Of a stretch of DNA of 64,000 nucleotides, positions 2 through 64,000 are shown one piece after another. Below the pieces are notes generated by a model. That model saw nothing but the letters and a program-made list of their open reading frames with translations, was not told the origin of the DNA and did not search any database. The stretch's first letter is position 1. Each line of letters begins with the position of its first letter. The DNA comes from Lumbricus terrestris (taxonomy: Eukaryota > Annelida > Clitellata > Crassiclitellata > Lumbricidae): assembly GCA_949752735.1 (NCBI GenBank), contig OX457043.1, positions 44,634,263 to 44,698,262 of the forward strand. The letters are read 5' to 3'. Position numbers and translations under genes: made by a program.

Positions 2-2017
2 CGCGGTGCCATTCGTAACTCACTAGAACCGATGGATGAAGCGCCAGTCGAAGTGGCAAGGATTGACGAGAGAGGTCGAGGTTCACTTCATCGGCTGATC
101 ATCTCACTCGTTTCAAATTATGCATTTGAAGATAGACATACATGTATAACGGCTGTCAAAAGAATGCTAGACCATTACAGACTCGATCAAATGGTTCACA
201 GAGTTCTTCTAAACCCAGAGAATTTCAGGGAGTCAGTCAATGCAGCAGACGATAAAGGAAGAACTCCTCTTCACTACGCTGCCATGCCGCCATATTTCAG
301 AAGCGAGAAAGAACGCGTTCTAGGCCTAACGAGGATTTTATTAGAAATTACTTCTAGTGTTAACGCAGTTGATAGGTATGGAAAAACTCCTTTGCATTAC
401 GCTGAAATGGATTATCAGTATAAGCTTCTCATCCAGCACGGAGCGGATGAAAGCATAAAAGACAAAAACGGACACACACCTAGAGATCTTAGGCAGCTAC
501 GAGAATTGGTGACAACCAACACAAACAATGGAAGTAATTTATCAATTGGAAAGAAGGCGCTTTACACGTCCACGCATATCAAGGGCTTACTCAACAGGGG
601 TCATGTGACAGAATTATCGAAGAGAAAGCTGGTTGCAATTATTAAAATACAGTCTCAATCACCTCGCCCATACGAATCGTCAGAAGAATCAATTTGGAAG
701 GTCTGGAAGAAAAACGACTTTCTTAGCCTCAACAGACGAATAAGCCAACTAAAAGCACCAGTTCAGCGCTTCATTAATCGTTTGGCCGATGGTATAAACA
801 AACGAGACGGGCGATTTGAGTGCCAGCCGATGTTAGTCGGAAGTGCAGATGAAGAAACAAAAGTTGTCATTTCAGCAGACTTCGATTTTAACTTCAGACT
901 GATTAAATTTAGTCATCTTTGTAACGCATTCCCACATCCATTGGGTCCAAATGGATACTTTCAACTGAGACGGAAAAGTGACAATGCAAATGGGAGGCAG
1001 AACAATCGGGAGTTTGACTGTTTCTTCAACTTAGATCAGTATTTGCTGACTAACGAAGTCAATTCTAGATTCCAGATTATTTTAGAAGACGTCTTACATG
1101 ATCCAAATTTCTGGCAAGACGAACATCTTTTCGAACGGAATTTGACATATCAGGATATAAACAAATCTGAAAAACCAGCAGCTGGTCTGTGTAAGACTGT
1201 GCATCTAAGGATGATTAATCCTATTGAAGATGGCGACGGTGGCTTTCTTTTTGTCAATTTATCAATTGACATAGTTGCTTGTGTTCATGTGGAAGATTCT
1301 TGTTTTGTAGATCAATTGCCAGTTGACATAAACCCAGCTGGGAAGTTAGACGGGTGTACACTGGTCTTTGATCGACCACGTTTTGATCCATCCAATCCAC
1401 ATAGACCTCACTCTGTCTTTTCCGATACATTTTCAAAAATTTCGTTTGCTCCATTAGAGAGTCGAATCATAAGAGAAAGCTCGTCGTTAGTTAAGGCAGC
1501 ATATATCGTTTGCAAATTTATACTTTACCGTAATCGAAAGGCTACTTACGAATTGAAAACATCTCTTCTCTTTTGCACGGAGGCTCTAAAGATCCGAGAG
1601 GGATTTGAATGGAAGGATGGAAATAAAATAACGCAAAATAATCTGGCCTTTTTGGTTGAGAGGCTCATGTTTTGCGCCTGTAAGTTTTATCAGCATGACG
1701 TTTATCCATGTTACTTCATGCCATCATTCAAACAGCGTGTAGTGCCACTAGATGAATTCTGTAAGTACCGGTACTTCAAACTGGACGATGTAGACACTTC
1801 TTTGGGGTCTATGATTCCTTTCAGATACTCTGCAATCTTTGATATTTACCTTGACTTATGTCCTGATGACACAATGATCAAGATACCTATAATCCAAAAC
1901 AAATACAGGTACGACTTAAATGAGGGAAATTATATTGCGAATCAAGACCCAACGTGGGAATTATTTGATCGGAAAGAATTTATCAGAAAGTTAGCATCAC
2001 GTAGTCCCAGCTGTTGA
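2..2017 (+). CDS. Ankyrin-Mab21/cGAS-like nucleotidyltransferase fusion, copy 1 (5' end outside window)
   Basis: The reading frame is open from the first bases of the window. The leading residues match the middle of copy 2 (RGAIRN... then DEAP.EVAR), so the ATG at 32 is internal and the true start lies upstream. What is visible is the last ankyrin repeats (GRTPLHYAAM, GKTPLHYAEM, about residues 77-165 counted from the ATG at 32), a linker, then a Mab-21/cGAS-like nucleotidyltransferase. Its G-S pair is residues 270-271, the metal-binding D-F-D is 283 and 285, and the third acid in LSIDIVAC is 413. The Mab-21 C-terminal helices follow, with YELKTSLLF and YPCYFMP. By family the domain would make a nucleotide second messenger in the cytosol; activity is inferred. 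It ends in SRSPSC with TGA, shorter than copy 2. Same strand as copy 2, 5 kb upstream of it. Confidence 0.9.
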   Translation, partial: RGAIRNSLEPMDEAPVEVARIDERGRGSLHRLIISLVSNYAFEDRHTCITAVKRMLDHYRLDQMVHRVLLNPENFRESVNAADDKGRTPLHYAAMPPYFRSEKERVLGLTRILLEITSSVNAVDRYGKTPLHYAEMDYQYKLLIQHGADESIKDKNGHTPRDLRQLRELVTTNTNNGSNLSIGKKALYTSTHIKGLLNRGHVTELSKRKLVAIIKIQSQSPRPYESSEESIWKVWKKNDFLSLNRRISQLKAPVQRFINRLADGINKRDGRFECQPMLVGSADEETKVVISADFDFNFRLIKFSHLCNAFPHPLGPNGYFQLRRKSDNANGRQNNREFDCFFNLDQYLLTNEVNSRFQIILEDVLHDPNFWQDEHLFERNLTYQDINKSEKPAAGLCKTVHLRMINPIEDGDGGFLFVNLSIDIVACVHVEDSCFVDQLPVDINPAGKLDGCTLVFDRPRFDPSNPHRPHSVFSDTFSKISFAPLESRIIRESSSLVKAAYIVCKFILYRNRKATYELKTSLLFCTEALKIREGFEWKDGNKITQNNLAFLVERLMFCACKFYQHDVYPCYFMPSFKQRVVPLDEFCKYRYFKLDDVDTSLGSMIPFRYSAIFDIYLDLCPDDTMIKIPIIQNKYRYDLNEGNYIANQDPTWELFDRKEFIRKLASRSPSC

Positions 2018-7019: not shown

Positions 7020-10000
7020 ATGGAAGAGCAGTTTGCTGTAGAAAACAGCCATACAGATGATACTTTACCACTTTTTGATTATTATGTAACGATGAGTACG
7101 GAATCAATTGAATACTCATACAAACGTGAAATTGAGGAGCTGTATAAAATATGTTTGGAGGATGAGGAAGAAAAGGTGGAGGAGAAAGTAGGACAAGAGA
7201 AGGAAAAGGAAAAAGTAAAAGATGTAGTAGAAGAAGACATTGGGGTAGTCTGTGAGAACGATGGAGAACAAGGCTTTAGTCGGCTTTACCTTGCAGTAGA
7301 GGATCATGACACAAAGACGGTTAGAACATTGCTGAGGTCATCGGTGAATTTGAATGAGCTGGACCCAAACAAAGACATTCGTTCGCAAATGTATGCTACT
7401 GTAAAAAAGCTACTAAATAAGAATGCAGGTGTTGCTTCGCGAAAAACATTCGACCGAACCTCGCTTCCGAAAATTCCAGAAAATGGTCACTTAAGATTTG
7501 CAAAAGGATCGCTGAAAAGCAACGCAGATACCAATACCGTCACCATCTCTGTCAAAAGCTTAATTTCCTCTGTCATATGTCCCACCTCTCTTCCTATCAC
7601 TGCTGAAATGGATTGCGCGGAAATTGTCAAAGCACTAACAGATTATGTCGGTGGAATCAATGCAGTAAATAAAAATGGCGACACCGCTCTTCATGTTGCA
7701 GCAAGAAATGACCGAAACGCTTTGGTAAAAATTTTGCTCAAGCAATCAGAGAAAAGGAAAGTGCGTTTGTGTTTGAAACTTGATCTAAATGAAGCTCTTC
7801 CAAATGAATTGGAACTTTCGAAACAACCCAGTAGAAACAAAGTTGATGTTGATCAGATTCCGCACAATTCCGCAGCACACGATGGTAATTTTGAAATCTT
7901 AAACACTCCATTAAGTCATGATTTGGGCGTCAAGGCAGTCTCCACAGAGCAAGCGACACCACTCCAAGTCCAACTTACAGCTGGACGAGAGCATGCAGAA
8001 ATTGTACAGAACTTGATATTAAACGGTGCGAATGTGAATGCCTGTAACAGCGCAAAGATGACTCCACTTCATTTAGCCTGCCAAAATGGTCACAGTTCAA
8101 TTGTTGAGATTTTACTGGACAATCATTCTACTGTTGACGCTACAAAACAAACATTGAAAACGCCATTTTATCTTGCAGCTGAGAATGGTCATGCATATGT
8201 CGTCGATGTGTTACTGCGCCGAGGAATTTGTGATTTTGTGACACTTGATCGTATTGGGACTCCATTGCACGTTGCTGTGAAGAACCGTAACATAGAAGTT
8301 GTTAAGGTTATATTGAAACACAGCTGCGGGATGTATGACAAATTAGCGACAGAAGAGCAGAAATGTAAAGAAAATGCCAATGTCTTTACCGAAACGACTA
8401 ACATCATGCCAATTGAACTCGCGAAACCTTATGGCCGGCGGTTCTCTGCCGGATTAGTTTGGACAGAAAGACGCATACCTCTGGAGATAATGCTAGATTT
8501 TTGTGAATGTACTGCGCTTGAGCATGCAGTGGAATCGAACCAACCGAAAATGGTTAAGATATTGCTCAGTGACGATCGATATCCATATTCAGAGGAACAT
8601 CTTGGAGACAACTTTCGTTGCATGATAGACACAATCACTGCAATAGATGAGCGATATAGATTCATCTCTGAAATGAAAAGCAGGAACACTATCGACATCA
8701 TGGAAGTTCTATGTTACGATATAAAGCATGAGATGATGTGCAAGAACATCAAAGAGATCGCATGTGCTCTTATGACTTCGAAGAACTTTAATGTAAACCA
8801 CCAAAACGAGTATATGAAGACATTACTTCACGAAGTCATACTGCAATGTAGAAATTGTTCTAATCGATATCTTGTAAAAAAATCCAGAATTCTGCTTTTG
8901 CAGATTCAAACCCTAAACGACGTGTTGCAATTGCTATTGGAGAACGGCGCAGATTTCAACATGAAAAATAGTTTTGGAGAAACACCTTTGATATTTGCTA
9001 CCGATGGAGGTTGTGCTCGTGCCATTCAAATTTTGTTTAACTGGGAGCAGAAATCAGGATTGAAACTCGACCTTGATGCAAGAGACGAATATGGGGCAAC
9101 TGCTTTGATTAAAGCAGCTGAAACACGTCATGTCTCATTAATGCGGTTACTTCTTAGCCATAAAGCTTCCGTCAATCTGAATGACTATTACGGATTTACT
9201 GCCTTGCACGCAGCTGTCTATGAGCCAAATAGGAACTGGTTTGATTTACATTTCTTCTGCAGCGGGCTTCTTAAGCAGAAACGTGATGATTACATATCTG
9301 AGTATCGTGAGATTTTCCGATGGTTAGAGCAAACCGTGGATCCATTTAAAACGAAGGGGCAGCTGGAAGAAAAACTTAGAAATGACATGATAACCATTTC
9401 ATGTAAAGAGGAAATCGTTAAATTATTGCTTGCTATTGACGAATTGGATGTTAATGCCATTGACTGCAGAGGAAACACGCCACTTGATTTGGCAGTTCAG
9501 TCTTCCAGACGAATTACTTCGCAGACCTTCAAAGCACTTGAGGATCGCGGTGCTATTCGTAACTTACTAAAACCGGTGGACGAAGCACCATGGGAAGTGG
9601 CAAGGGTTGACAAGGGAGGAAGAGGTCCACTTCATCGACTGGTCATCTCCCGCATTTCAGATTCCACAGTTGAAGATATGAAGCCTATAATGAATGCAGA
9701 CATTAGAAAACTAGACTCTGAAGCAATGGATCTAATGGTTCATGGATTTATCCTAAAACGAGATAATTTCAGGCAGTCAGCCAATGCAATAGACAATAAA
9801 GGGAGAACTCCTCTTCACTATGCTGCGCCAGGCAGAAGCGTTGAAGGTAGCGTTGTATGCCTTTGGAGGGTTTTATTAGAAATTACTTCCAACGTTAACG
9901 CTGTTGATATGTACGGCAAAACCCCTTTACATTACGCAGAAATGAATTTTCAGTACGAGTTTCTCGTCCAGCATGGAGCTGATGAAAGCATAAAAGACAT

Positions 10001-11591
10001 AAACGGACATACACCTAAAGATCTTAGGCAGCTGCGAGAATCAGTGACTATAAACACAGACAACGCAGAGAAATTGCAATTCGCAGGGGACGCGCTTTAC
10101 ACATCAACAGACGTCGTACGTGTGCTAAACGCTAATCATGTGACAGACTTATCGAAGCTAAAACTAAAACTACCTTTGGCGGTTCGAAGATATCCTCAAC
10201 CCACGCGCCCTAAAAAATCGTCAGAAAAAGAAATTTGGAAGGTCTGGAACGAAACAGACTTTCTTTGCCTCAACAGACGCGTAAGCAAACTGAAGCCACC
10301 AATTCAACTCTTCATTGATCGTTTGGCCGACGGTATAAAAGAAAAGGACTGGCGATTTGAGTGTCAACCGATTTTAGTGGGAAGTGCAGATGAAGAAACA
10401 AAAGCTGTCATTTCAGCAGACTTTGATTTCAACTTCAAACTAATTAAATTTAGTCAACTTTGTGATGTGTTTCCACATCCACAGGGTCCGAATGGATATT
10501 TTCAACTGAGACAAAAGAGTGGATACACAAGAAGGAGGCAGAGTGATGGCGACTTTGACTGCTTCTTCAACCTGGATGAGTGCTTACTGACTAAAGAAGT
10601 CAATTCTAGATTCCAGATTATTTTAGAAGACGTCTTGCAAGATCATAATTTCTGGCAACATGAACATATTTTCGAATGGAACTATACAGCCTCATTAGAG
10701 CCAGCTGGTCTGTGTAAGACTGTGAGGCTAAGAATGATTAATCCCATTGAGGACGGCGAGAGTGACTTTCTTTTTGTTGATTTATCAATTGACATAGTTG
10801 CTTGTATTCAAATGGAGAATTCAAGTTTAGAAGACCCACAGTCAGTTGACATAAACCCAGCAGGGAAGGTAGGCTGTTGTACTTTGGTCTTTGATCGGCC
10901 ACGTTTTGATCCATCCAAGCCACATAGACCTCATTCTGTCTTTTCCGATACATATTGCAGAATTTCGTTTGCTCCATTAGAAAGTCGAATCATTAGAGAG
11001 AGTTCATCTTTAATAAAGGCAGCATACATTGTTTGCAAACTTATGCTTTGCAATCTTTCAGGGACTACTTATCAATTGAAGACGTCCCTTCTCTTTTGCA
11101 TGGAGGCTCTAAAGATCCGAGAGGAATTTGAGAAAAAGGTTGAAGACAAAATTACGCCAAGGGACCTGGTCTTCTGGGTCGAGAGGGTCATGTTTTGCTT
11201 TATCGAGTTTTCTCGACATGACGTTTATCCATGTTACTTCATGCCGTCATTCAGGCAGCGAGTTGTAGAACTGAATCAATCGCATCTGCGAATCGAAGCG
11301 GACGATGTAGACTCTTCCTCGGGGTCTGAGATTTATTTAAGATACTCTACGTTCTTGGACATGTATCTTGATTTATGTCCACACGATGCAATGGTCGATT
11401 TTCCTATAATTCAAGACTGGTTCTACTTAAAAGAAGGAAGTTTTCTTGCGAATCAAGACTCGAGGTGGGAGAAATTTTATTGGGAAGAATTTATCAGAAA
11501 GTTAGCATCACGTAGGCTAGTCTCAACGTTTGAACAAAAAGATGAAGAGAATATTGCGCAAGAGGAATTGACATCGATCGAGCGGCAGTAG
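7020..11591 (+). CDS. Ankyrin-Mab21/cGAS-like nucleotidyltransferase fusion, copy 2 (full length, single coding exon)
   Basis: 1523 residues. Order: acidic, Glu/Lys-rich probable coiled coil (about 35-75); degenerate first ankyrin unit (84-116); ankyrin repeats near 216-246 and 325-437 (TPLHLACQNGH, TPLHVAVKN); a second array at 632-738 (ETPLIFATDGG, YGFTALHAAV); more repeats at 806-830 and 920-1009 (GRTPLHYAA, GKTPLHYAE, GHTPKDL). A spine helix follows (about 1085-1115), then the nucleotidyltransferase: G1121-S1122, D1134-F-D1136, third acid D1258 (SIDIVACI). Mab-21 C-terminal elements are at about 1317 (FAPLESRIIRESS), 1348 (TYQLKTSLLF) and 1400 (YPCYFMP). From GS to the acids the spacing is 12 and 14, as in cGAS. 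No cGAS-type zinc thumb is seen. Expected role is a cytosolic second-messenger synthase; an inactive Mab-21 scaffold is the alternative. The start is the first ATG in this frame. Confidence 0.93.
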   Translation: MEEQFAVENSHTDDTLPLFDYYVTMSTESIEYSYKREIEELYKICLEDEEEKVEEKVGQEKEKEKVKDVVEEDIGVVCENDGEQGFSRLYLAVEDHDTKTVRTLLRSSVNLNELDPNKDIRSQMYATVKKLLNKNAGVASRKTFDRTSLPKIPENGHLRFAKGSLKSNADTNTVTISVKSLISSVICPTSLPITAEMDCAEIVKALTDYVGGINAVNKNGDTALHVAARNDRNALVKILLKQSEKRKVRLCLKLDLNEALPNELELSKQPSRNKVDVDQIPHNSAAHDGNFEILNTPLSHDLGVKAVSTEQATPLQVQLTAGREHAEIVQNLILNGANVNACNSAKMTPLHLACQNGHSSIVEILLDNHSTVDATKQTLKTPFYLAAENGHAYVVDVLLRRGICDFVTLDRIGTPLHVAVKNRNIEVVKVILKHSCGMYDKLATEEQKCKENANVFTETTNIMPIELAKPYGRRFSAGLVWTERRIPLEIMLDFCECTALEHAVESNQPKMVKILLSDDRYPYSEEHLGDNFRCMIDTITAIDERYRFISEMKSRNTIDIMEVLCYDIKHEMMCKNIKEIACALMTSKNFNVNHQNEYMKTLLHEVILQCRNCSNRYLVKKSRILLLQIQTLNDVLQLLLENGADFNMKNSFGETPLIFATDGGCARAIQILFNWEQKSGLKLDLDARDEYGATALIKAAETRHVSLMRLLLSHKASVNLNDYYGFTALHAAVYEPNRNWFDLHFFCSGLLKQKRDDYISEYREIFRWLEQTVDPFKTKGQLEEKLRNDMITISCKEEIVKLLLAIDELDVNAIDCRGNTPLDLAVQSSRRITSQTFKALEDRGAIRNLLKPVDEAPWEVARVDKGGRGPLHRLVISRISDSTVEDMKPIMNADIRKLDSEAMDLMVHGFILKRDNFRQSANAIDNKGRTPLHYAAPGRSVEGSVVCLWRVLLEITSNVNAVDMYGKTPLHYAEMNFQYEFLVQHGADESIKDINGHTPKDLRQLRESVTINTDNAEKLQFAGDALYTSTDVVRVLNANHVTDLSKLKLKLPLAVRRYPQPTRPKKSSEKEIWKVWNETDFLCLNRRVSKLKPPIQLFIDRLADGIKEKDWRFECQPILVGSADEETKAVISADFDFNFKLIKFSQLCDVFPHPQGPNGYFQLRQKSGYTRRRQSDGDFDCFFNLDECLLTKEVNSRFQIILEDVLQDHNFWQHEHIFEWNYTASLEPAGLCKTVRLRMINPIEDGESDFLFVDLSIDIVACIQMENSSLEDPQSVDINPAGKVGCCTLVFDRPRFDPSKPHRPHSVFSDTYCRISFAPLESRIIRESSSLIKAAYIVCKLMLCNLSGTTYQLKTSLLFCMEALKIREEFEKKVEDKITPRDLVFWVERVMFCFIEFSRHDVYPCYFMPSFRQRVVELNQSHLRIEADDVDSSSGSEIYLRYSTFLDMYLDLCPHDAMVDFPIIQDWFYLKEGSFLANQDSRWEKFYWEEFIRKLASRRLVSTFEQKDEENIAQEELTSIERQ

Positions 11592-12172
11592 TGAGCTATC
11601 ATTGCTTTAAGCAACAATCGTGACGTCATAGGGGTCCAGGTCAAAGGTCAAGGACATTTTAATCAGTTCACTTTAATTAGGTCATGTTAATCAGGTCATA
11701 TTAATGGGGTCATGCAAATTAGGTCATATTAATTAGGTCACAGTAATTCTATTATATTAATTGATAATAATTAGAATTTAATAGAGCAATTAGTAAACCC
11801 GAATAAGCATCCGCAAGGCCCACTCCGACCAGAAATGACTCATCGGAAGCGCCGCGGGGTATTATGGGAGCGGTACTGGCTTCCACTTCTCGGCCTCCTC
11901 CCCTCCATTCCTTCAAACTTCAATTCCTCACTCTTAATCTGAACCCTAATTAGCAGCGCAAGCCTCACTCCGACCGGAAATTAATAAATTCTAATTATTA
12001 TACATTAATATAATATAATTATTATGACCTAATTAATATGTCCTAATTAGCATGACCTAATTGATATGACCGAATTAACATTGACTAATTAATGTGACCT
12101 GATCAAGATGACCTTGACCGTGACCTGGACCCCGATGACGTCACGATTGATGCCTAAAGCAATGATAGCTCA
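11592..12172. mobile_element. 581-bp palindromic MITE abutting the stop codon of copy 2
   Basis: Terminal inverted repeats of about 170 bp: TGAGCTATCATTGCTTTA at 11592 and its complement ending at 12172, continuing through CAATCGTGACGTCAT and GGTCCAGGTCA. The interior is GC-richer (CGACCRGAAATKA motifs) and non-coding. The left end directly follows the TAG of copy 2, so the insertion may have changed the gene's 3' end. Each arm holds TGACGTCA and a run of AGGTCA half-sites. A clean TSD is not evident (TA or TAG at most), so the superfamily is uncertain. Confidence 0.85.
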
Positions 12173-12495
12173 TTACTAGCGGCGTTAAGAATTATTACAA
12201 GTTTAAGAACAGAAGATTAGAAGGCAGTGTGGCTGGTGTTACTTTTTCTTGCACATGTTCAATGCAAGATAGCTGAAGCGATAAATGACAGTGACAACTC
12301 TATTTGCATCCTCCTTGATTTATCAGAATTGTTCGGTTCGCAGACCAAAGGGGTATCGCACTGTCGCTATGGGGTTAGAGGTATCGCAGATGAATGTTTT
12401 TTTCTGCTTATATTGACCAATAGCATTCATTTTATAGGACTATCGTTTATTTTAAAGACTATCTTTCCTATCCTAATAAAATTTGTGATGTCAGG
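12173..12495 (+). other. Displaced 3' flank of copy 2
   Basis: Continues the flank homologous to that of copy 1, pushed downstream by the MITE. Contains AATAAAA near 12475, a possible polyadenylation signal. The short reading frame here is conserved flank, not a supported gene. Confidence 0.6.
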
Positions 12496-13166
12496 CAATG
12501 TCTAATCTAGTCCTCTGCGTTGGGGGGCAGTGGCGGCGCCAGGATCTCAGTTTTGGGGATGAGTTCTCGCGGAGGAAATTTTCCATTTTCATTCGCGAAA
12601 ATGTCTGACGAGTTTTTTTAGTCATTATTTTGGTCGAAATCTCGTGGTGTGTTTAAATTTTTAGGGGCTAATCATTTATTTATTTCATTTTAACATGTAA
12701 AAAACTGGATGGCCTTTTTAAGGGGGGTTTTGCACCCTGTGGCGCAGCTACTGGCTGGGGGAAATTCTGGTTCCTTGGGGTCGGGTTGGAGAGGGAACAA
12801 GTTCTTTTTGGTAGGTCGGTTTAAATCTCAGAAAAGCATACCAATTTCGCAGCTGAAAAAACTGACGACCCTTTTGTCGTACGGGCAAAATCTCTTTTTA
12901 AAGTCTTTCTTTCTGTTCAACCTAAAATTTACCAATATCAACCGTACCATATTCATGCATGTCCAACTGTCCATGTATGCTTGTATATACAAGATCGGTC
13001 CATTTGTCTGTTTGGGAGAAACTGTAACATTTAGTTCTTCAGGAAGGGACAATGATTCTTATATAGGCTACATGTATAACACAACACATCGCAATTTTTC
13101 AGGGAGAAAATTCTTTTCTCGGGTGAACGCCCCACGCCACCCTTGATACGTTTAGATTAAACACTG
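12496..13166. mobile_element. CAGTGTTTAATCTAGTCC-family repeat, copy B
   Basis: Left end CAATGTCTAATCTAGTCC; right end TTTAGATTAAACACTG at 13151-13166, the inverted complement. The body matches 2419-3290 and 32133-32640 (AAAAAACTGACGACCC, CCAACTGTCCATGTAT). It is at the orthologous position to copy A and is split by a hAT-type MITE. Confidence 0.7.
12528..12753. mobile_element. hAT-type MITE (CAGTGGCGGCGCC family), nested
   Basis: Starts CAGTGGCGGCGCCAGGATCTCAG, nearly the same as the element at 16027. Its right end is a decayed complement (GGCGCAGCTACTG). The flanking octamers TTGGGGGG and GCTGGGGG match at 6 of 8 positions. Interior AAAATGTCTGACGAGTTTTTTTAGTCAT is one monomer of the minisatellite found in its relatives. 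Absent from the copy-1 flank, so inserted after duplication. Confidence 0.65.
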
Positions 13167-36362: not shown

Positions 36363-37658
36363 GATTTGGATTGGAGGGACACAGGCAGCGGTGGATCTCG
36401 GTCCTTCCCTCGTCCACGGGGCTCATCCCCGACGACGACTGGCAGGACCCACAGCAGCCCACAGCGCCAGCTGCATCGCCACAGCGACCCATCTCCTCCA
36501 GACCAGCATCGCCAGATGACAGAGACGGTCATCACCCTTCTGCCGTCCCACCTCAACGCTGCCGCAGCCACCGCCTCATCCCCTCCGGACGACCGACCAC
36601 GTCGCGCCTACTTCCACCTTCGCAGCGACGACACGGGCGAACGCAGCGGCTCCAACCAATCCCTCAGCGACTGGAGGGACACGACCGGTGGGGCTGGGGC
36701 AGCTGCTGGTGGGGAGCTACCCCGGCTGGCGACGCAGAGTCGCCACGGGTCCTCGGCCGATAGCAACGCCAGGCACTCGAGTGGCGTCTTCGTACTCCCG
36801 ACGGAGCCCATTCATATTGATTCCCCGAGGTTCAGGGATCACAGGGACCGACTGGGTAGAGGGTCCCAGCAGTGGTCTCCCATATCCAAAGATTCAGTCG
36901 ACATCGCTAGAGAGAACAGTAGCGTTGCCAGGCTGGGTCCGACGGAATCAAACGTCGAACCAACGTCGTCACGTGTTCTGCAGACTGACCGCCAGGAACT
37001 GCAGGAGACCTCGACAAGTAGGGGACTATGGACGTCGCGACAGCGAACGAGTTTAAGGTCCGATGTTCGCCCTGGTGATCAGGGGAACACGTTGCGAGAA
37101 GGGTACAGACAGGAGAGGACGTTCATCGGGGTTACCACAAAGGTGAACCCGCTGACGAGGATGAACCAGATCCTCTCCAAGTCCAACACGAACCTCTCAA
37201 GGTCCGACTTGCTCTTGGCCGCCGCCGCCACAAGACGAGGTAATAACACGTCCAACCTGCAGAGGCACTGCTCCGAAATGAACCTCCAAAACCGTCTAAC
37301 CGGATATGACGGTGGTCACCGGGGTCCAACCCAGCACCATCCAAACACTTCCGCTCACAGACCGGGTGCACTGACAACACTCCCCAACCGTAAGATGCTC
37401 ATTAAGTCACAGTCGCAACCGGTGTTTCGACCCGGAAACGACCGATATAGACTGCCTATCAACCGGAAGTCGATTCCGATGATAAAGAACGATAACAAGA
37501 ACACACCGGAAGCGGAAGAGAAGACGAAAGAAGAGCGGATTATCGAGTGGCTGTTGGACATCGATGGGTATGCAGATCCACCGGATTCTCCGATCATATT
37601 CGAAGATGGACCTCTGCAGTCGGACACTGCGATTCACGTCGTATATGAGGGAGACTGA
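36363..37658 (+). CDS. Terminal exon of a two-exon gene; disordered Ser/Arg/Pro-rich protein of unknown function
   Basis: The acceptor TTGATCGTTTCAG precedes GAT at 36363 (phase 0), and 432 codons run to TGA at 37658. GC content and codon use differ sharply from the AT-rich surroundings. The N-terminal part is rich in Ser, Pro, Arg and Gly (probably disordered). A more ordered stretch contains NPLTRMNQILSKSNTNLSRSDLL and RHCSEMNLQNR, with several basophilic kinase-type sites. The C-terminus is acidic (EERIIEWLLDIDGYADPPDS, IHVVYEGD). Joined to 28944-29141 it makes about 498 residues. I do not recognise the family and see no enzyme motif, signal peptide or membrane segment. A frame starting at 36143 overlaps it in another phase and is a shadow. 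Confidence 0.7.
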   Translation, partial: DLDWRDTGSGGSRSFPRPRGSSPTTTGRTHSSPQRQLHRHSDPSPPDQHRQMTETVITLLPSHLNAAAATASSPPDDRPRRAYFHLRSDDTGERSGSNQSLSDWRDTTGGAGAAAGGELPRLATQSRHGSSADSNARHSSGVFVLPTEPIHIDSPRFRDHRDRLGRGSQQWSPISKDSVDIARENSSVARLGPTESNVEPTSSRVLQTDRQELQETSTSRGLWTSRQRTSLRSDVRPGDQGNTLREGYRQERTFIGVTTKVNPLTRMNQILSKSNTNLSRSDLLLAAAATRRGNNTSNLQRHCSEMNLQNRLTGYDGGHRGPTQHHPNTSAHRPGALTTLPNRKMLIKSQSQPVFRPGNDRYRLPINRKSIPMIKNDNKNTPEAEEKTKEERIIEWLLDIDGYADPPDSPIIFEDGPLQSDTAIHVVYEGD

Positions 37659-43407: not shown

Positions 43408-46400
43408 TCAAAAATTGTAACCCGGCTTTATGGGTATATCGATCGTTTTGTCATATGGGCAGAGGTTAAGGTAAATATCAAAGGCCGCAGAGTAGAGGAA
43501 AGGATAATTAGACCCTGGATATCTGGCGAAGTCTACCCCATGTTTGCGATTATAACTAGCATTAAGTATTACAACTCGCTGTTTGAATAATGGCATGAAG
43601 TAACATGGATATACGTCATGTTGATAAAACTCAGTGAAGCGAAACATGAGCCTCTCGACCCAGAAGGCAAGTTCCTTTGGCGTTATTTTGTCTCCATACT
43701 TTCGTTCACATCTCTCTCGGATCTTGAGAGCATCCATGCAAAGGAAAAGGGACGTCTTCAATTGATAAGTAGTTTTCTTTTCATTGAAAAGTATCCTTTT
43801 GCAAACAATATATGCTGCCTTCATTATAGACGAGCTTTCTCTTATGATTCGACTCTCCAATGGTGCAAAAGAAATTCTGGCAAATGTATCGGAAAAGCTA
43901 AAGAGAGAACCACGGGGCTTGGATGGATCAAAATGTGGTCGATCAAACACCAATGTACAACCGGTTACATTTTCGGCTGGGACAAATGCCAGTTGGTCTC
44001 CTAAACACGACACGTCCATTTGGACACAAGCAACTACGTCAATCGACACATTGACAAAAATAAAGCCACCTTCTCCGTCTTCAATGGGATTAATCATGAT
44101 TAGCCGCACAGTCTTACACAGACCAGCTGGCTTTTCGTATATGCTATGATCTACATTTGTCAAGTTCCATTCGAAAAAATGTTCGTCTTGCCAGAAATGT
44201 GAACTACGCAAGACGTCTTCTAATAAAATCTGGAATCTAGAACTGACTTCGTTAGTCAGCAAACACTGATCTAAGTTGAAGAAACAATCAAACTCCCCAT
44301 CACTCTGTCTGGTTTTTGTATAATCACTCTTTCGTCTCAATTGAAAGTATCCATTTGGACCCAGTGGATGTGGGCATGCGTCACAAACCTGACTTAATTT
44401 AGTCAGCTTGAAATTAAAATCGAAGTCTGCTGAAATGACAGTTTTTGTTCCTTCATCGGCACTTCCCACTAAAATCGGTTGACACTCAAATCGTTCGTCC
44501 TTTTCCTTTATACCATCGGCCAAACGCTTAATGAAGCGTTGAATTGATGGCTTCAGTTTGTCTAAGCGTCTGTTGAGGTTAAAAAAATCTCTATGTGTCC
44601 AAATATTCCAAATTATTGCTTCTTCTGACGATTCCTTTGGACGAGGTGATTGGGAATATATTCGAACCGTTTCAACTAATTTTGGCTTCGATAATTCTGT
44701 CACATGATCCTCTTCAAGTGCACACACAATTTGGAGTGGCACATAAAGCTGCTCATTCCCTGCAAAGTGCAATTTCTTTGCGTTGTCGGTGTCGATGTCG
44801 ACCGATTCTCGTAGCTTTCTAAGATCTTCGGGTGTAAGTCCGAAGTTGTCTTTTATGCTTTCAATGGCTCCTCCGAATTTGATGAGAAGCTTATACTGAT
44901 AATTACTTTCTGCGTAATGTAAAGGTGCTTTACCGTATACATCAACTGCATTAACGCCGGAACCAACATTCAATTGCACTTTCAATAGATTTTCGCTTGA
45001 CGATGACATAACAGCGTGGTGAAGTGGAGTTCTTCCTTTATCATCAGTTGCATTGACTGACTGCCTGAAATTCTCTGATTTTAGCATAAATTCTTGAAAC
45101 ATAAAATCGAACCATTCATCTTGTTTATCTCTTTCAGCCGCCTTCATATCGCCAACTGCGCCATTTAATATTTTGCGGTTCATCAGTCGATGAAGTGGAC
45201 CTCGACCTCTCTCGTCAACCCTTGCCATTTCCAATGGTGCTTCGTCCATCGGTTCTATTGAGTTACGAATGGCACCGCGATTTTCAAGTACTTTGAAGGT
45301 TTCCAAGGTAATTCCTTTGGAAGATTTTACTGCCAGATCAAGTGGCGTGTTTCCTCTGAAATCTCTGGCGTTTACATTTAATTCGTTAATAGCCAACAAT
45401 AATTTAACCATTTCTTGTTTAAATCGAGGGGTTTTCTCTTTATATTTAAGATTTTTCTCCAGCTTGGAACTTGCCTCATTTGCCCAAAAGTACTCATTCG
45501 CACGAGGCATCTCACGACACTCATCGATATAATTATATTTCCGCTCAAGAAGTCCCTTGCAGAAGAAATGCAAATCAAACCACTTCCTATTTGGCCCAAA
45601 GACAGCTGCATGCAAGGCAGTAAATCCATAATAGTCATGCAGATCGACAGAAAGTTTATGGCTTAAAAGCAACCGCATAACTGAGACATGATGTCTTTCT
45701 GCGGCTTTAATCAAAGCAGTTGCGCCATATTGATCTCTTGCATCAAGGTCGAGTTTCAATCCTGATTTCTGCTCCCACTCAAACAACTTTTGAATGGCGT
45801 GAGAACATCCTTGTTGAGAAGCAATTATTAAAGGCGTTTCGCCAGAAGCATTTTTCACGTTGAAGTCTGCACCTTTTTCCAATAGCAACTGCAACAAATC
45901 GTCTACAGTTTTAATCATCAACCGTCGCGGCCTTGACTTCTTTGTCAGATATTCGTCGGAACATTCTTGGCATTTCTCTCTTATATGGTGCAGAAGTGTA
46001 TTCAATTGGAAATTTTGGTAGTTGGCGCTAAAGTTGCTCGAATTCACAAGAAGTTGCGCTATTTCTTTGATGCTTTTGCATTTCATTCTGATTTGTATAT
46101 CGTAACAAAGAAATTCCATGATGCCCATGATGTTCATGTCTTTCATTTTTGAGATGACCTCATGCCAGCTCTTCGGAGTCTTGCTTGTCTCATCTATCAG
46201 ACAACAAAAGCACTTTGTTAGATGTTTCTCTGAATACACGCATCGCTCTTCACTGAGAAACATCTTAACCATTTTCGGCTGGATCGTTGTCACTGCGATT
46301 TCAAGCGCAGCGCGTTGTTCTGATTCCAGCATTGTCTCCAGGGATGTGTCTACTTCTTTCCAAACTATTCCGGCAAAGACGCTTCGGCCATCGGATTTCG

Positions 46401-48078
46401 TTAATTCCATTTCTATGATACCCCTCTTTTCAGCCAATTTGTTTACATTTTCTTGAAGTTTCTGCTCATCTTTTGTTAATACGAGAGAAATCCTGCAGCT
46501 GTGTTTTAAAATAACCTCAACAACTTTTGTGTGATGCTTTCTGGTAGCAATGCATAATGGTCCCACATTAAAGCGATCTCGTACAAAATCACAAATTCCT
46601 CGGCGCAGTAAAACATCCACGACATCTGCATGACCATTCTCGGCTGCAATATAAAACGATGTATTCCAGATTTGTTCATTAACGCCAACCAGAGCATGGT
46701 TGTCCAATAAAATGTCCACAATCAAACTGTGACCATATTTGCTGGCTAAATGAAGTGGAGTCATATTGTCTTTGTTTCGTGCATTAACATTCGCTCCGTG
46801 AAATATCAAGCTCTCTACAATATGCTCGGCTGTTAGTTGGGCACGCAGTGGTTTAGTGTGCAATGTAGAGACTAGGCCTACTTTCATGCTCGGATGATTA
46901 TTTAAAAAGGATTTCGACGTTTCAAAATTACTACCTTGGGTTGCGACAGTGTGTGGAACATGACCAGCATCAACTCTTTTTCTATTGAATTGTTGCGAAA
47001 GTTCCATTTCGCCTGAAAAAACTTGGTTTGCCGCAAGTTTCAAACCAGAACGCGCATCCCTTTCCGCGTATTGCTCAACTGAAAGATGGCCACCGATTGG
47101 TGTCGCATGCCATGTGGAGTCTGCATTGACGCTCGAATTACGCCTTAATTCGGTTTTTGAGATGTCAAAATTACCCTCTTGTATTGCGACATGGTGTGGA
47201 ATGTGACCAACATCAACTTTATTTCTATTGGATTGTTTCGAAAGTTCCAATTCATCTAGATGAACTCGGCATTCCGCAAGTTTCAAAAGCGAACTCGCTT
47301 CCCTTACCGTAGATTGATTGAACAAAATCTTTACCAAAGCATTGGGGTCATTTCTTGCAGCAAGGTGGAGAGCAGTATCGCCATTTTCATCAACTTCATT
47401 AATCCCACCGACATATTTTATCAGCACTTGGACAATTTCGACGCAACCCATTTCAGGAGCGATAAGAAGAGGGTCAGGACATGAGCCACTGTTAGCAGCG
47501 CTGTTTTTCAGCAATGTGTGCTTTATTCCTAAGTGGCCGTTTTGGGGCGCCTTAGAAAGCGAAGTCTGGAGAAATGCATTTCTAGGATCGACACTTGTTT
47601 TCCTATTTAGTAGCTCTTTTACAATCGCATATAATCGTGGAATATTGTTCCTATTCGCCTCCAGCTCATTCACATCCACCGATGACTTCAGCAATCTTCT
47701 AACAGTCTCTTTGTCCCGAAGATCACATGCAAGGTAAAGCTGACTAAATTCCTGTTCTTCGTCTTTCTCACTTTCTTCCTGTGTGTTCTCCGACCATTGT
47801 TTTGCATATCCTTCTTCCTCTTCGTTCTCCTCTTCTTCCTCTTTCTTCTGAACCGCTTCATGTAATTTTTGCATTTCCGCAGGGGTGTATAATTGTTCCC
47901 AAATGTCGATTTGAGATTCTTGTGAGTCAACGCTCATCTTTTCTCTATCATATACAATGTACTTGTCTTCAGATTGACGGTGCAATTCAACAGTTGATGA
48001 TCGTCCGTTATTGATATCAGCTGCGTTTTGTGTGTCTCCAGACACAACCGCAGTCTTTTGGGTTGACTTGTTACTCAT
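43408..48078 (-). CDS. Ankyrin-Mab21/cGAS-like nucleotidyltransferase fusion, copy 3 (full length, single coding exon)
   Basis: 1556 residues, opposite strand to copies 1 and 2. The N-terminus (about 1-75) differs from copy 2 and is followed by a Glu-rich probable coiled coil (about 80-110) and QEFSQLYLACDLRDKETVRRLL, the degenerate first ankyrin unit. Ankyrin arrays follow (GDTALHLAARN, NMTPLHLASKYGH, ETPLIIASQQG, YGFTALHAAV, GRTPLHHAV). It carries an extra stretch of about 70 residues relative to copy 2, in which a VDxGHxPHxVA motif is tandemly repeated. Nucleotidyltransferase: G1205-S1206, D1218-F-D1220, D1347 in VSIDVVACV. Mab-21 C-terminal YQLKTSLFL and YPCYFMP are present. A TTTTGTATTTCACAG acceptor-like site 80 bp upstream suggests a 5' UTR intron. 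The stop removes about 36 conserved residues. Confidence 0.92.
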   Translation of the reverse strand: MSNKSTQKTAVVSGDTQNAADINNGRSSTVELHRQSEDKYIVYDREKMSVDSQESQIDIWEQLYTPAEMQKLHEAVQKKEEEEENEEEEGYAKQWSENTQEESEKDEEQEFSQLYLACDLRDKETVRRLLKSSVDVNELEANRNNIPRLYAIVKELLNRKTSVDPRNAFLQTSLSKAPQNGHLGIKHTLLKNSAANSGSCPDPLLIAPEMGCVEIVQVLIKYVGGINEVDENGDTALHLAARNDPNALVKILFNQSTVREASSLLKLAECRVHLDELELSKQSNRNKVDVGHIPHHVAIQEGNFDISKTELRRNSSVNADSTWHATPIGGHLSVEQYAERDARSGLKLAANQVFSGEMELSQQFNRKRVDAGHVPHTVATQGSNFETSKSFLNNHPSMKVGLVSTLHTKPLRAQLTAEHIVESLIFHGANVNARNKDNMTPLHLASKYGHSLIVDILLDNHALVGVNEQIWNTSFYIAAENGHADVVDVLLRRGICDFVRDRFNVGPLCIATRKHHTKVVEVILKHSCRISLVLTKDEQKLQENVNKLAEKRGIIEMELTKSDGRSVFAGIVWKEVDTSLETMLESEQRAALEIAVTTIQPKMVKMFLSEERCVYSEKHLTKCFCCLIDETSKTPKSWHEVISKMKDMNIMGIMEFLCYDIQIRMKCKSIKEIAQLLVNSSNFSANYQNFQLNTLLHHIREKCQECSDEYLTKKSRPRRLMIKTVDDLLQLLLEKGADFNVKNASGETPLIIASQQGCSHAIQKLFEWEQKSGLKLDLDARDQYGATALIKAAERHHVSVMRLLLSHKLSVDLHDYYGFTALHAAVFGPNRKWFDLHFFCKGLLERKYNYIDECREMPRANEYFWANEASSKLEKNLKYKEKTPRFKQEMVKLLLAINELNVNARDFRGNTPLDLAVKSSKGITLETFKVLENRGAIRNSIEPMDEAPLEMARVDERGRGPLHRLMNRKILNGAVGDMKAAERDKQDEWFDFMFQEFMLKSENFRQSVNATDDKGRTPLHHAVMSSSSENLLKVQLNVGSGVNAVDVYGKAPLHYAESNYQYKLLIKFGGAIESIKDNFGLTPEDLRKLRESVDIDTDNAKKLHFAGNEQLYVPLQIVCALEEDHVTELSKPKLVETVRIYSQSPRPKESSEEAIIWNIWTHRDFFNLNRRLDKLKPSIQRFIKRLADGIKEKDERFECQPILVGSADEGTKTVISADFDFNFKLTKLSQVCDACPHPLGPNGYFQLRRKSDYTKTRQSDGEFDCFFNLDQCLLTNEVSSRFQILLEDVLRSSHFWQDEHFFEWNLTNVDHSIYEKPAGLCKTVRLIMINPIEDGEGGFIFVNVSIDVVACVQMDVSCLGDQLAFVPAENVTGCTLVFDRPHFDPSKPRGSLFSFSDTFARISFAPLESRIIRESSSIMKAAYIVCKRILFNEKKTTYQLKTSLFLCMDALKIRERCERKYGDKITPKELAFWVERLMFRFTEFYQHDVYPCYFMPLFKQRVVILNASYNRKHGVDFARYPGSNYPFLYSAAFDIYLNLCPYDKTIDIPIKPGYNF

Positions 48079-51669: not shown

Positions 51670-53560
51670 CAGTGGCGGATCTAGAACGTTTCGAAGGGGG
51701 GGGCCAAAAAATTTTGGGCTGGAGTCGGAAAATTGTTTGTTGATCTTTGGCTTAAAAATCTGATTAACTATTTTAGTCGTTTTTGGCGGAAACCAGAGTT
51801 TAATTTAGCCCCCACCTCTGGGGGGATTGAGGTTTCCGGAGGGTTTCGATAATTGGCCGTCTAAAGACAATCATGAGGCGCGCAGCGCCGAGAGTGGTAG
51901 GGGAGGGGTGTGGAGAGGGGATATGCCCTCCCCACCAGAAACATTTTGAATTTTCACATTGCAATGGTAGCATTTTAAGCTGTTATCTTAACAAAATAGC
52001 TGTACTTTTCAGTGCTTATAAGAGTGCCATAAGGTCTCAATAAATATAGTCTTTACTCAAAAACTTCTTTCCCGAAAACTCGATGTTCTTTTTTAAGTAA
52101 TCCGCCGGAAATCTTCAAAAAGATTGTTCAATTTTCCTTCCCAAAAAAACTGATGACATTTTTTGATCATCCGTGCGAAATCTTAAAAAAGGTGATTAAT
52201 TTCTCGCCTAAAAAGAGTGATGACTTTTTAGTCTTCCGTGCGAAATTTTCACAAAAAGTTGTTTAATTTCTCATCTCGAAAAACTGAATACTTTTTGTAG
52301 TCATCTGTGCTAAATCTTAAAAGAGGTGTTTAATTTTTCGTCTAAAAAGAGTGATTTTTTTATTCTTCCGTGCGAAATTTTCAAAAAAAGGTGTGCAATT
52401 TAGCATCCCAATAAACTGATGACTTTTTGTAGTCATCCGTGCGAAATCATAAAAAAGGTGTTTAATTTTTCGTCTAAAAAGAGTGATGACTTTTTAGTCT
52501 TCCGTACGAAATTTTCAAAAAAGGTGTTCAATTTAGCATCGCAAAAACTGATAACTTTTTGTAGTCATCCGTGCGAAATCTTAAAAAAGGTGTTTAATTT
52601 TTCGTCTAAAAAGAGTGATGACTTTTTATTCTTCCTTGCGAAATTTTCAAAAAAGGTGTTTAATTTCGCATCCCAAAAAACTGATGACTTTTTGTCGTCA
52701 TCCGTGCTAAATCTTTAAAAAAGGTGTTTAATTTTCGTCTAAAAAGAGTGATGACTTTTTATTCTTCCGTGCGAAATTTTAAAAAACGGTGTTCAATTTA
52801 GCATCCCAAAAAACTGATTTTTTGTAGTCATCCGTTTGAAATCATAAAAAAGGTGTTTAATTTTTCGTCTAAAAAGAGTGATGACTTTTTACTCTTCTGT
52901 GCGAAATTTTCAAAAAAAGGTGTTCAATTTAGCATCGCAAAAACTGATAACTTTTTGTAGTCATCCGTGCGAAATCTTAAAAAGGTGTTTAATTTTTCGT
53001 CTAAAAAGAGTGATGACGTTTTAGTCTTCCGTGCGAAATTTTCAAAAAAGGTGTTTAGTTTCGCATCCCAGAAAACTAATGACTTTTTGTAGTCATCCGT
53101 GCTAAATCTTAAAAAAGGTGTTTAATTTTTCGTCTAAAAAGAGTGATGACTTTTTATTCTTCCTTGCGAAATTTTCAAAAAAGGTGTTTAATTTCGCATC
53201 CCAAAAAACTGATGACTTTTGTAGTCATCCGTGCTAAATCTTTAAAAATGGTGTTTAATTTTCGTCTAAAAAGAGCTTTGACTTTTTATTCTTCCGTGCG
53301 AAATTTTCAAAAAAGGTGTTCAATTTAGCATCCCAAAAAACTGATTTTTTGTAGTCATCCGTGCGAAATCTTAAAAAAGGTGTTTAATTTTTCGTCCAAA
53401 AAGAGCGATGACTTTTTATTATTCCGTGCGAAATTTAAAAAAGGTGTTCAATTTCGCTTCCCAAAAAACTTATGAATTTTTAGTGAACCGTCCGAAATCT
53501 TCAAAAAGGTGTTCAATTTTCCTTCTAAAAAACTGATGACTTTTTAAGACTAGAAAAAAT
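51670..53560. mobile_element. hAT-type MITE left end followed by a 1.5-kb minisatellite
   Basis: 51670 begins CAGTGGCGGATCTAGAACG, a hAT-like terminus. From about 52060 there is an array of about 67-bp monomers in alternating A/B form (about 133-bp higher-order unit): CTGATGACTTTTTGTAGTCATCCGTGCGAAATC...GGTGTTTAATTTTTCGTC and GTGATGACTTTTTATTCTTCCGTGCGAAATTTTC...GCATCCC. About 22 monomers. They are homologous to the three monomers in the MITE at 16027. No right terminus or TSD was found. Confidence 0.8.
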
Positions 53561-54171: not shown

Positions 54172-54290
54172 ATATAGAGGAACTCGTTTTAACTTCCGGA
54201 AATGTACCGGATTAATTGCATTAGGGGATCCGTCAAATGCTGGAACAATTAGCGACTCGAGTCGTGACTGTCACATTGCAAGATGACATT

Positions 54291-54490
54291 NNNNNNNNNN
54301 NNNNNNNNNNNNNNNNNNNNNNNNNNNNNNNNNNNNNNNNNNNNNNNNNNNNNNNNNNNNNNNNNNNNNNNNNNNNNNNNNNNNNNNNNNNNNNNNNNNN
54401 NNNNNNNNNNNNNNNNNNNNNNNNNNNNNNNNNNNNNNNNNNNNNNNNNNNNNNNNNNNNNNNNNNNNNNNNNNNNNNNNNNNNNNNNNN
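54291..54490. other. Assembly gap (200 N)
   Basis: Exactly 200 Ns. Sequence continuity across it cannot be assumed; frames through it are meaningless. Confidence 1.
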
Positions 54491-54650
54491 TAGACCTATG
54501 CTTGACATCAATATGCAATTGGGTGGGCCAAAAAGTTACCGAAGAGGTTTTTGGCTAATTTGTGGCCAATTGCAAGAATTTTAATTCACATTTTACAAGT
54601 TTGAAGATAACTGACATTATAGACACAACAGACTTAATTCACTAACACAT

Positions 54651-61620: not shown

Positions 61621-64000
61621 TCAGTAGCTGGAATTACGTGCTGCTAACTTTTTAATGAATTCTTCTCGATCAAATTGGTCCCAGTTTGGGTCTTCATTCG
61701 CAATAAGACCTCCTTCCTTGAAGTCGGAGGTTTTCTCGTCTTGGAATATAGGTATATCCATCGTTGTGTCATCTGGACACAGGTTTAAGTAAATGTCAAA
61801 GGCCCTCGAGTATTTAAAAGAGATTCCGAACCCAAAAGAAGCGTCTCTATTGTAGTGTACCTTGCTTGCGTCAAAGTATTTAATCAGTTCTACAACTCGC
61901 AGTTTGAATGATGGCATGAAGTAACAGGGATAAACGTCATGTCGATGAAACTCGCTGAAGCAAAACATGAGCCTCTCGACCCAGAAGGAAGTTCCTTTTT
62001 CGTAATTCTGTCTTCTTCCTTTCTTTCACATCCCTCTCGATTTTTTAGAGCCTCTATGCAAAAGAAAAGAGACGTCTTCAATTGATAAGTAGTCTTCGGA
62101 TTTTCGTAAAGTAGGCTATCAGTTTGCAAACTGTATATGCTGCCTTTATTACAGACGGACTTTCTCTTATGATTCGACTCTCTAACGGTGCAAAAGAAAT
62201 TCTGGAATATGTATCTGAAAACATTGAAGGGGTACCACGTGGCTTCGATGGGTCAAAACGTGGTCGATCAAATACCAGTGTATAACCGTCTGCCTTCCCC
62301 GCTGGGTTTATGTCAATTGGCAGCTGGTCTCCAAAACACGATTCATCCACAAGAATACAAGCAACAACGTCAATCGATACCTTGACAAAAATAAAGTCAC
62401 CTTCTCCGTCGTCGATGGGATTAATCATTCTTAGCCGCAAAGTCTTACAGAGACCAGCTGGCTTTACGGATGTGCTATGATCTACATCTGTCAAGTTCCA
62501 TTCGAAAAGATGTTCATCTTGCCAGAAATTTTGATCTTGTAAGACGTGTCCTAAAATCATATGGAATCTAGAATTGACTTCGTTAGATATCAAACACTGA
62601 TCTGAGTTGAAGAAGCAGTCAAACTCCCCATCACTCTGTCTCCTTTCTGTGTGGTCACTCTTTCGTATGAGTTGAAAGTATCCCGTTGGACCCAGTGGAT
62701 GTGGGAATACGTCACAAAGCTGACTAAATTTAATCAGCCTGAAGTTAAAATCGAAGTCTGCTGAAATTACAACTCTTGTTTCTTCATCTGCACTTCCGAC
62801 TAGCCTCGTTTGGCATTCAAATCGCCCGTCCTTTTTCTTTATACCATCAGCCAAACGATCAATGAAGCGTTGAATTGGTGGCTTCAGTTTGCCTAAGCGT
62901 ATGCTGAGGCTAATAAATTTATTGTCGATTCAAATCTTCCAAATCGCTTCTTCTGACGATTCTTCTGGGCTAGGTGATTGAGAAAATATTCTAACCGTTT
63001 CAGGGAGTTTTCGCTTCGATAATTCTGTCACATAATCTGTATTAAGTGCACGCTTTTTAATCTCTGGACCCGCGTAGCGCCTTCTTTCCGATTGGTAATT
63101 TCTCTGCATAATCCGCGTTGATAGTCACCGATTCTCGCAGCTGCCTGAGACCTCGAGGTGTGTGTCCGTTCTTATCTTTTATTCTTTCATCAGCTCCGTA
63201 TTCGATGAGAAGATCATACTGAAAATTCATTTCTGCGTAATGTAAAGGGGTTTTCCCGTAAATATCAACTGCGTTAACGTTTTAACCAATTTTTAGTAAC
63301 ACCCTTGCTAGATCGCGATGATCCTCTCTGATGTAGTCTGGTGGCATTACAGCGTAGTGAAGTGGAGTTCTTCCTTTATCATCAGTTGCATTGGCTGACT
63401 CCCTGAAATTTTCTGGTTTTTGGAAAATTCCACGAACCATCAGATTGAATCTGTCACGGGTTTGTGTTCTTTCAGCTACCTTTGCATCCTTCACATTTTC
63501 GACTGCATAATTTGAAACGTGGGAGATGATCAGTCGATGAAGCGGACCTCGCCCTCTATCGTCAACCCGTCATTAGAATTGGCGACTCGTCCATCGATTT
63601 TTAGTAAGCTACAAATAACACCGCGATCCTTAAGGGATTCGAAAGTTTCCAAAGTAATTCGCTCGTAAAACTTTACGACCAGATCAAGTGGCGTGTTTCC
63701 TTCGAAGTCAATGGCATTTACATTTAATTCGTTATCAGCCAGCAATAATTTAACCATTTCCTCTTTTAATCGCATGGTTTTCTCGTCGTATTGAAAAGTT
63801 TCATCCAGCTGGCCAGTGGTTGTAAATTGATCCACGGTGAGTTGTCCCCATAAGAGCTGGCCCCGTCGGAAAGCCTTATTATACTTCTTACAATAATCAC
63901 GTTTCCCCTTAAAAAATCCCTTGCAGAAGAAATGCAAATCAAACCAGCTTCTATTTGGCTGATAGACAGCAGCGTGCAAGGCAGTGTATCCATAATAGTC
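61621..64000 (-). pseudogene. Ankyrin-Mab21/cGAS-like nucleotidyltransferase fusion, copy 4 (frameshifted; 5' end outside window)
   Basis: Minus-strand segments cover the family in order: ankyrin region from the window edge (GYTALHAAVYQPNRSWFDLHF, GNTPLDLVV) to about 63570; 63494-63282 (GRTPLHYAVM) ending at an in-frame TAA (63282-63284); linker (GKTPLHYAEMNFQY); nucleotidyltransferase 62900-62130 with GSADE, ADFDFNF and SIDVVAC all intact; C-terminal part 61968-61621 (YPCYFMP to RKLAARNSSY). At least three indels shift the frame: near 63600-63570, between the linker and the spine helix, and near 62100-61970. Decay looks recent because codons between breaks remain conserved. Gene conversion donor or unassembled alleles are alternatives. 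Confidence 0.85.

Follow-up and report, generated by a model that had tools for sequence, protein, structure and literature searches.

The window analysed here is a stretch of 64,000 nucleotides from chromosome 8 of the earthworm Lumbricus terrestris (contig C9, 56.59 Mb). At positions 7020..11591 of the forward strand it holds an uninterrupted reading frame of 1523 aa, which we call copy 2 and which is predicted to encode an ankyrin array joined to a cGAS-like nucleotidyltransferase (NTase). In 200 mononucleotide shuffles of its 4572 bases the longest stop-free frame had a mean length of 112 aa and a maximum of no more than 190 aa. The ankyrin-repeat region covers approximately residues 85-1005 (7272..10034, + strand, limits set by eye). 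A Pfam scan of the whole protein matched Ank_2 with an E-value of 7.3e-65 in six stretches within the first two thirds of the protein, and a pattern search found 11 core motifs of the TPLHxA type inside the region. NCBIfam matches to bacterial ankyrin effectors were far under the cut-offs and were set aside as generic ankyrin similarity. A reading of the sequence alone, without database searches (the sequence-only reading), had placed ankyrin repeats and a Mab-21/cGAS-like domain in one intact frame at this locus and had proposed an ankyrin profile search as a check; the open frame and the Ank_2 match are in agreement with it. It had also described coiled coil together with ankyrin repeats over more than 1000 residues; the ankyrin part of this description holds and the long coiled coil does not: the sole candidate, judged by eye, is a short charged stretch at about residues 48-76. 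An inverted repeat of approximately 197 bases (86%), with arms at 11587-11783 and 11982-12177, starts where copy 2 has its stop codon. This repeat may represent a foldback element by which the protein acquired its present C-terminus.

Three further copies lie in the window. Copy 1 (2..2017, + strand) is truncated at the window edge to its C-terminal 671 aa, with the last ankyrin repeats and the NTase. The genome just upstream consists of N, behind which the N-terminus of this copy lies, and a 2365-aa frame obtained for it was rejected as an artefact of the N run. Copy 3 (43408..48078, - strand) is an ankyrin-NTase frame of 1556 aa that ends about 50 residues before its relatives, with its stop at position 397 when counted along the 450-residue reference for the C-terminal part. 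Copy 4 (61621..64000, - strand) shows the same order of parts in the sequence comparison and is judged to be broken or misassembled, because it is split over several frames. The claim that the architecture of copy 2 recurs in all three copies thus applies to copy 3, if about 50 residues short, and to copy 1 as far as the window edge allows, and is not confirmed for the split frames of copy 4. The Mab-21 profile PF03281 remained under its cut-off in copy 1 (18.0 bits, E 0.0033) and copy 3 (21.4 bits, E 0.00029). In copy 4, of which the longest piece was scanned, no match to it appeared at E <= 10. The assignment of copies 1, 3 and 4 to the family is based on their identity to copy 2: identities between the window copies are 58-70%, where each comparison with copy 4 covers a single piece no longer than 283 aa. 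For copy 2 versus copy 3 we obtained a dN/dS of 0.55 in the ankyrin part and of 0.39 in the C-terminal part. Similarity is likewise seen in the non-coding DNA that follows copies 1 and 2 (2176-2456 with 12268-12533 and 2504-2650 with 12806-12957). This fits tandem duplication and disfavours retroposition or a mobile element as source of the copies.

Elsewhere the window contains a tandem array of about 11 units of approximately 132 bases (52108-53546) and an open frame of 430 aa (36366-37658, + strand) with no Pfam match at E <= 0.001. A non-LTR retrotransposon-like pair on the - strand (55892-58132) consists of an endonuclease frame (PF03372) followed by a reverse transcriptase (PF00078). The N run at approximately 54290-54500 is a gap or a withheld stretch.

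The C-terminal domain was searched for in a genome sequence of 331 contigs and 1,056,305,194 bases; the published assembly wcLumTerr1.1 is given as 361 scaffolds and 1,056,547,181 bases (PMC10799228). At least 94 places were found (95 rows; 94 of 206 candidates scored), namely 73 on C14 (chromosome 13), 17 on C9, two on C154 and one each on C13 and C7. Two clusters, at 21.9-26.6 Mb of C14 (71 places) and at 44.55-46.25 Mb of C9 (17 places), hold 88 of these at least 94 places. Frames of at least 1200 aa were present at 72 of the 94 listed places and shorter frames at 22. The match was free of internal stops at 75 of them and carried a stop at 19, and a frame of at least 1200 aa coincided with a stop-free match at 60; copy 1 is counted in the 72 and in the 60 with a frame inflated by N. 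Nine stop-bearing loci were inspected for the stop position: in four the best tblastn piece contains the stop, which in three cases lies at position 397 or later of 450, i.e. past the catalytic part.

For 46 loci, selected on overall similarity, compared by tblastn with no motif filter and including window copies 1-3, the motif-bearing frame carried ankyrin repeats in 39/46 and PF03281 at E <= 0.001 in 23/46 cases; the frame assigned to L049 in this count most likely belongs to a neighbouring copy. The family alignment (A4) has 39 rows, comprising 35 of 37 references, three window copies and P0003. The 37 references are those of 45 loci that matched, with at least 380 aa, a pattern requiring G-S and [DE]-[FV]-[DE]; two of them, L024 and L029, correspond to window copies 1 and 3. 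P0004 and P0006 were left out of alignments A3-A6, P0008 out of all alignments and copy 4 out of A4 and A6. P0004 was rejected as an alignment row since by eye it looks chimeric (assembly) after the NTase part. In a maximum-likelihood tree of the 39 domains the 13 rows from chromosome 8 form one clade (99/97), and the rows from C14 and other contigs form no single clade. As judged from these searches, copy 2 belongs to a large family of earthworm proteins in which ankyrin repeats are fused to a cGAS-like domain.

When PF03281 itself served as genome query, at least 150 matches were obtained, all 150 over the cut-off and with other architectures among them (150 of 637 candidates scored). At two loci, L059 and L060, ankyrin and PF03281 were both clearly over the cut-off in one frame, the latter with about 52 bits. 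These two score closer to the Mab-21 profile than the window copies and belong, with L062, to a divergent ankyrin-Mab-21 clade on C12 (chromosome 11) and C14 with the motifs E-F-D and S-[IL]-D-I-V-P-C. Other Mab-21 proteins are found at L006 (C4:74.998 Mb) and in large number on C2, C4, C9 (10-17 Mb), C11 and C15, many of them in frames of approximately 600-1000 aa that match the second half of PF03281 only. L006, the one member of this group that was read, matched both PF03281 and PF20266 and gave no ankyrin match. The genome sequence also includes COX1 on contig C331 (15,933 bases), readable by the invertebrate mitochondrial code, and a second COX1-like copy in two pieces (L065, L066) on the 44.7 kb contig C318, which could represent mitochondrial DNA copied into the nucleus or an assembly error.

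The NTase domain of copy 2 (10239..10994, + strand) is supported by the PF03281 match at residues 1126-1325 and by profile comparison with the PDB. Within the C-terminal 450 aa PF03281 scored 27.0 bits against a curated cut-off of 24.1 (E 5.7e-6), spanning profile positions 4-195 of 197; in the whole-protein scan it was absent at E <= 0.001. The Mab-21 profile search proposed beforehand thus came out in favour of the domain, which by this measure is real but distant. Among the 39 family domains 27 matched PF03281 at E <= 0.01, the best at 1.6e-14. Searching the PDB with the 39-row family profile returned 15 distinct sequences at E <= 10, all of them cGAS (n = 13, best 2.7e-7), cGAS-like receptor (0.069) or MB21D2 (0.13). 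Significance was reached with this profile only: a 4-row profile found cGAS alone, at an E-value of 0.18, and copy 2 as a single query found nothing in the PDB at E <= 10.

A C-terminal helical part that resembles the C-terminal lobe of cGAS (10962..11279, + strand, limits approximate) is marked by the motifs ISFAPLESRII, YQLKT and YFMPSF. The motifs of the helical part align with the cGAS lobe in the comparison of the family profile with the PDB, and PF20266 (Mab-21_C) was matched by 0/39 family domains at E <= 0.01. Using hhalign, the family aligned with Mab21L1/2-like proteins over 264 columns including the helical part, with an E-value of 5e-4 at a probability of only 31.6%; the reversed control gave 0.22. 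AlphaFold2 models were of low confidence (pLDDT 31.8 and 47.1), the second being too weak to place the active site. The structure comparison suggested in the sequence-only reading put the right superfamily at the top of the ranking, with no match attaining significance.

The putative active site begins with the stretch G-S...D-F-D at residues 1121-1136 (10380..10427, + strand; S1122, D1134 and D1136), which aligns with cGAS. The third acid, D1258 in S-I-D-I-V-A-C (10791..10793, + strand), aligns with ISVDIILAL of cGAS in a second stretch that is weak when taken alone (i-Evalue 0.9 with the 39-row profile). The G, the S, the second D, the third D and the K of YxLK were each found in 46/46 loci, and the first acid is D in 42/46 and E in 4/46. 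The mean entropy of the NTase columns was 1.05 bits (30 long rows). A site that looks complete in every locus, with G-S, [DE]-x-D and a third D, is what the description of the domain as apparently catalytic had implied. The genome also encodes canonical Mab-21 proteins (L001-L003), which we take to be Mab21L1/2-like. Among them, L001-L002 have G-H where the family has G-S, and in our reading the third acid appears to be missing from these proteins.

Catalytic cGAS-like receptors (cGLRs) were selected by Li et al. 2023 (PMC9980059) with a pattern of a G[S/G] activation loop and [E/D]h[E/D] with X50-90 before a third acid, along with a cGAS-like predicted fold and hand curation, as described in their main text. 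Copy 2 carries the first element at residues 1121-1122 and the others as D-F-D and D1258. In the four window copies 121-127 residues separate D-h-D from the third acid, a distance that falls outside X50-90. We consider X50-90 to be a search setting, because the mouse cGAS row of the PDB alignment, counted alike, itself has 93 residues; a strict application of the pattern could hence miss the family of the window. The cGLR superfamily has been described as the clade with a Mab21 domain, PF03281 (PMC10732462), whose curated cut-off copy 2 exceeds and copies 1 and 3 do not reach. We file the window protein under this superfamily and not as a proven fit to the catalytic-cGLR list of Li et al.

The conserved site bears on the question whether the domain could be a catalytically silent scaffold, in which the NTase fold binds a kinase or a nucleotide and acts by protein contacts. 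Such behaviour has a precedent in shrimp, where, by an account published in 2026, three Mab21 proteins bound neither dsDNA nor dsRNA and made no cGAMP, yet activated IKKepsilon (PMC12928593), and the third-acid spacing, longer than in cGAS, would be compatible with it. In a silent fold, however, the loss of some active-site residues would be expected, as seems to have happened in the canonical proteins L001-L003, whereas in the family these residues persist in 46/46 loci though the domain otherwise diverges. We therefore regard a silent scaffold as rather unlikely.

The charge of the domain provides information on its possible ligand. Isoelectric points calculated with Biopython for the cut domain, i.e. 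by a method different from that of Li et al., ranged from 5.19 to 8.37 across the family with a median of 5.97, and 0/39 domains exceeded 8.5. According to the main text of Li et al. 2023 (PMC9980059), cGLRs that sense dsDNA or dsRNA have a pI > 8.5 and non-nucleic-acid ligands are suggested for acidic ones. From the median of about 6.0 and the absence of values above 8.5 in the 39 domains we infer that the trigger is probably not a nucleic acid. The same values speak against a cGLR for nucleic acids, with a C-terminal domain that senses dsRNA or dsDNA and an ankyrin array that would only localise the enzyme or recruit partners; in addition, a zinc-thumb insertion was not seen in the alignment by eye. 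Even though, among the activities of cGLRs, the sensing of nucleic acids is characterised best (Li et al. 2023, PMC9980059), we hold this assignment to be unlikely for the family.

Exons of the STING ligand-binding domain were detected in the same genome, with 10 matches over the cut-off on C2, C5 and C14 (23/23 candidates scored); these matches are single exons and not assembled genes. Of the STING-type signalling that had been presumed for the locus, the ligand-binding domain of STING is thus represented in this animal.

Constraint was estimated from 401-435 row pairs (30 of 40 rows tried, frames >= 800 aa). The median dN/dS was 0.30 for the NTase, 0.36 for the helical lobe, 0.40 for linker and spine, 0.43-0.47 for the ankyrin repeats and 0.66 for the C-terminal tail. 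By these estimates every part of the family protein is under constraint, most strongly the enzyme. Within the ankyrin repeats the structural positions are kept and the others are variable, which is expected in any ankyrin family and carries little weight. That the copies have no host immune role, being a gene family of mobile or viral origin or an array in decay, would agree with their large number, with uninterrupted frames alongside broken ones such as copy 4 and with the internal stops at 19/94 listed places, but is highly improbable in view of the dN/dS values well below 1, the similar non-coding flanks of copies 1 and 2 in the self-comparison of the window (as in tandem duplication), the single clade of the 13 chromosome-8 rows, the 60/94 listed places with a long frame and a stop-free match (copy 1 inflated by N) and, with respect to decay, the three of four located stops, among nine stop-bearing loci, that lie past the catalytic part.

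With a probability of roughly 0.6, we favour the reading that the family consists of ankyrin-fused cGAS-like receptors whose NTase makes a nucleotide signal for STING in response to a trigger other than nucleic acid. The ligand, for example a protein of a pathogen or a host protein in a disturbed state, would bind either to the ankyrin array or to an acidic face of the enzyme domain. Its binding would release the C-terminal NTase, which would then join nucleotides into a cyclic dinucleotide. This product would bind an earthworm STING protein and thereby elicit an immune response, and the many tandem copies would constitute a repertoire of specificities acting on one common output. A family of this very large size may be a set of immune sensors. 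More tentatively, and with less than even odds, the dozens of ankyrin-cGLRs could act as NLR-like cytosolic receptors, in which diversified arrays sense non-nucleic-acid cues and one conserved enzyme signals to several STINGs. If the enzymes are active, the family would amount to a large natural collection of ankyrin-fused cGLRs, mostly acidic, in an animal that is easy to keep. The published suggestion of non-nucleic-acid ligands for some cGLRs would then become directly testable, as would the idea that an appended repeat array can be the sensor for a cGAS-type enzyme.

Compared to cGAS, the family shares the NTase core with G-S, the acidic triad and the C-terminal helical lobe, and cGAS chains are its best PDB matches. 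It differs from cGAS by a low sequence identity, a lower pI, the third-acid gap of 121-127 residues versus 93 in mouse, and a long ankyrin array in the place where cGAS has its N-terminal tail. With respect to Cv-cGLR1 of Crassostrea virginica (PDB 8gjw), the low-confidence model of the family domain allows a ranking of the superfamily only. Oyster DED-TRADD-N proteins with Mab-21/cGAS domain and TPRs are likewise long multi-domain, immune-type proteins with a cGAS-like domain in an expanded family, but have other partner domains, and no ankyrin array is named in the text consulted (PMC8195603). A search of the literature, covering titles and the openings of abstracts of mostly open-access papers, found none on annelid ankyrin-cGLRs. 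The words "annelid", "earthworm" and "Lumbricus" do not occur in the main text of Li et al. (PMC9980059), with whose supplementary list an overlap is possible. According to that text, modules of ankyrin repeats occur in cGLRs of animals, among them the coral Stylophora pistillata, some coral cGLRs are joined to ankyrin repeats and death domains, bivalve genomes hold more than 200 cGLRs, and 87% of cGLRs are single-domain proteins (PMC9980059). The earthworm family resembles these ANK-cGLR fusions in that a single protein carries both ankyrin repeats and a cGAS-like NTase, in the lineage-specific expansion of cGLRs and in the presence of what appear to be several STING genes. It differs from them as far as that text goes, since appended domains are a minority there, whereas in the earthworm the fusion itself occurs in dozens of copies and has a longer spacing from D-h-D to the third acid. 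The ankyrin-cGAS-like architecture has thus been known in kind since 2023 and the fusion is not unprecedented; what looks new in the earthworm family is its scale, the mostly acidic enzyme domain and the longer NTase spacing.
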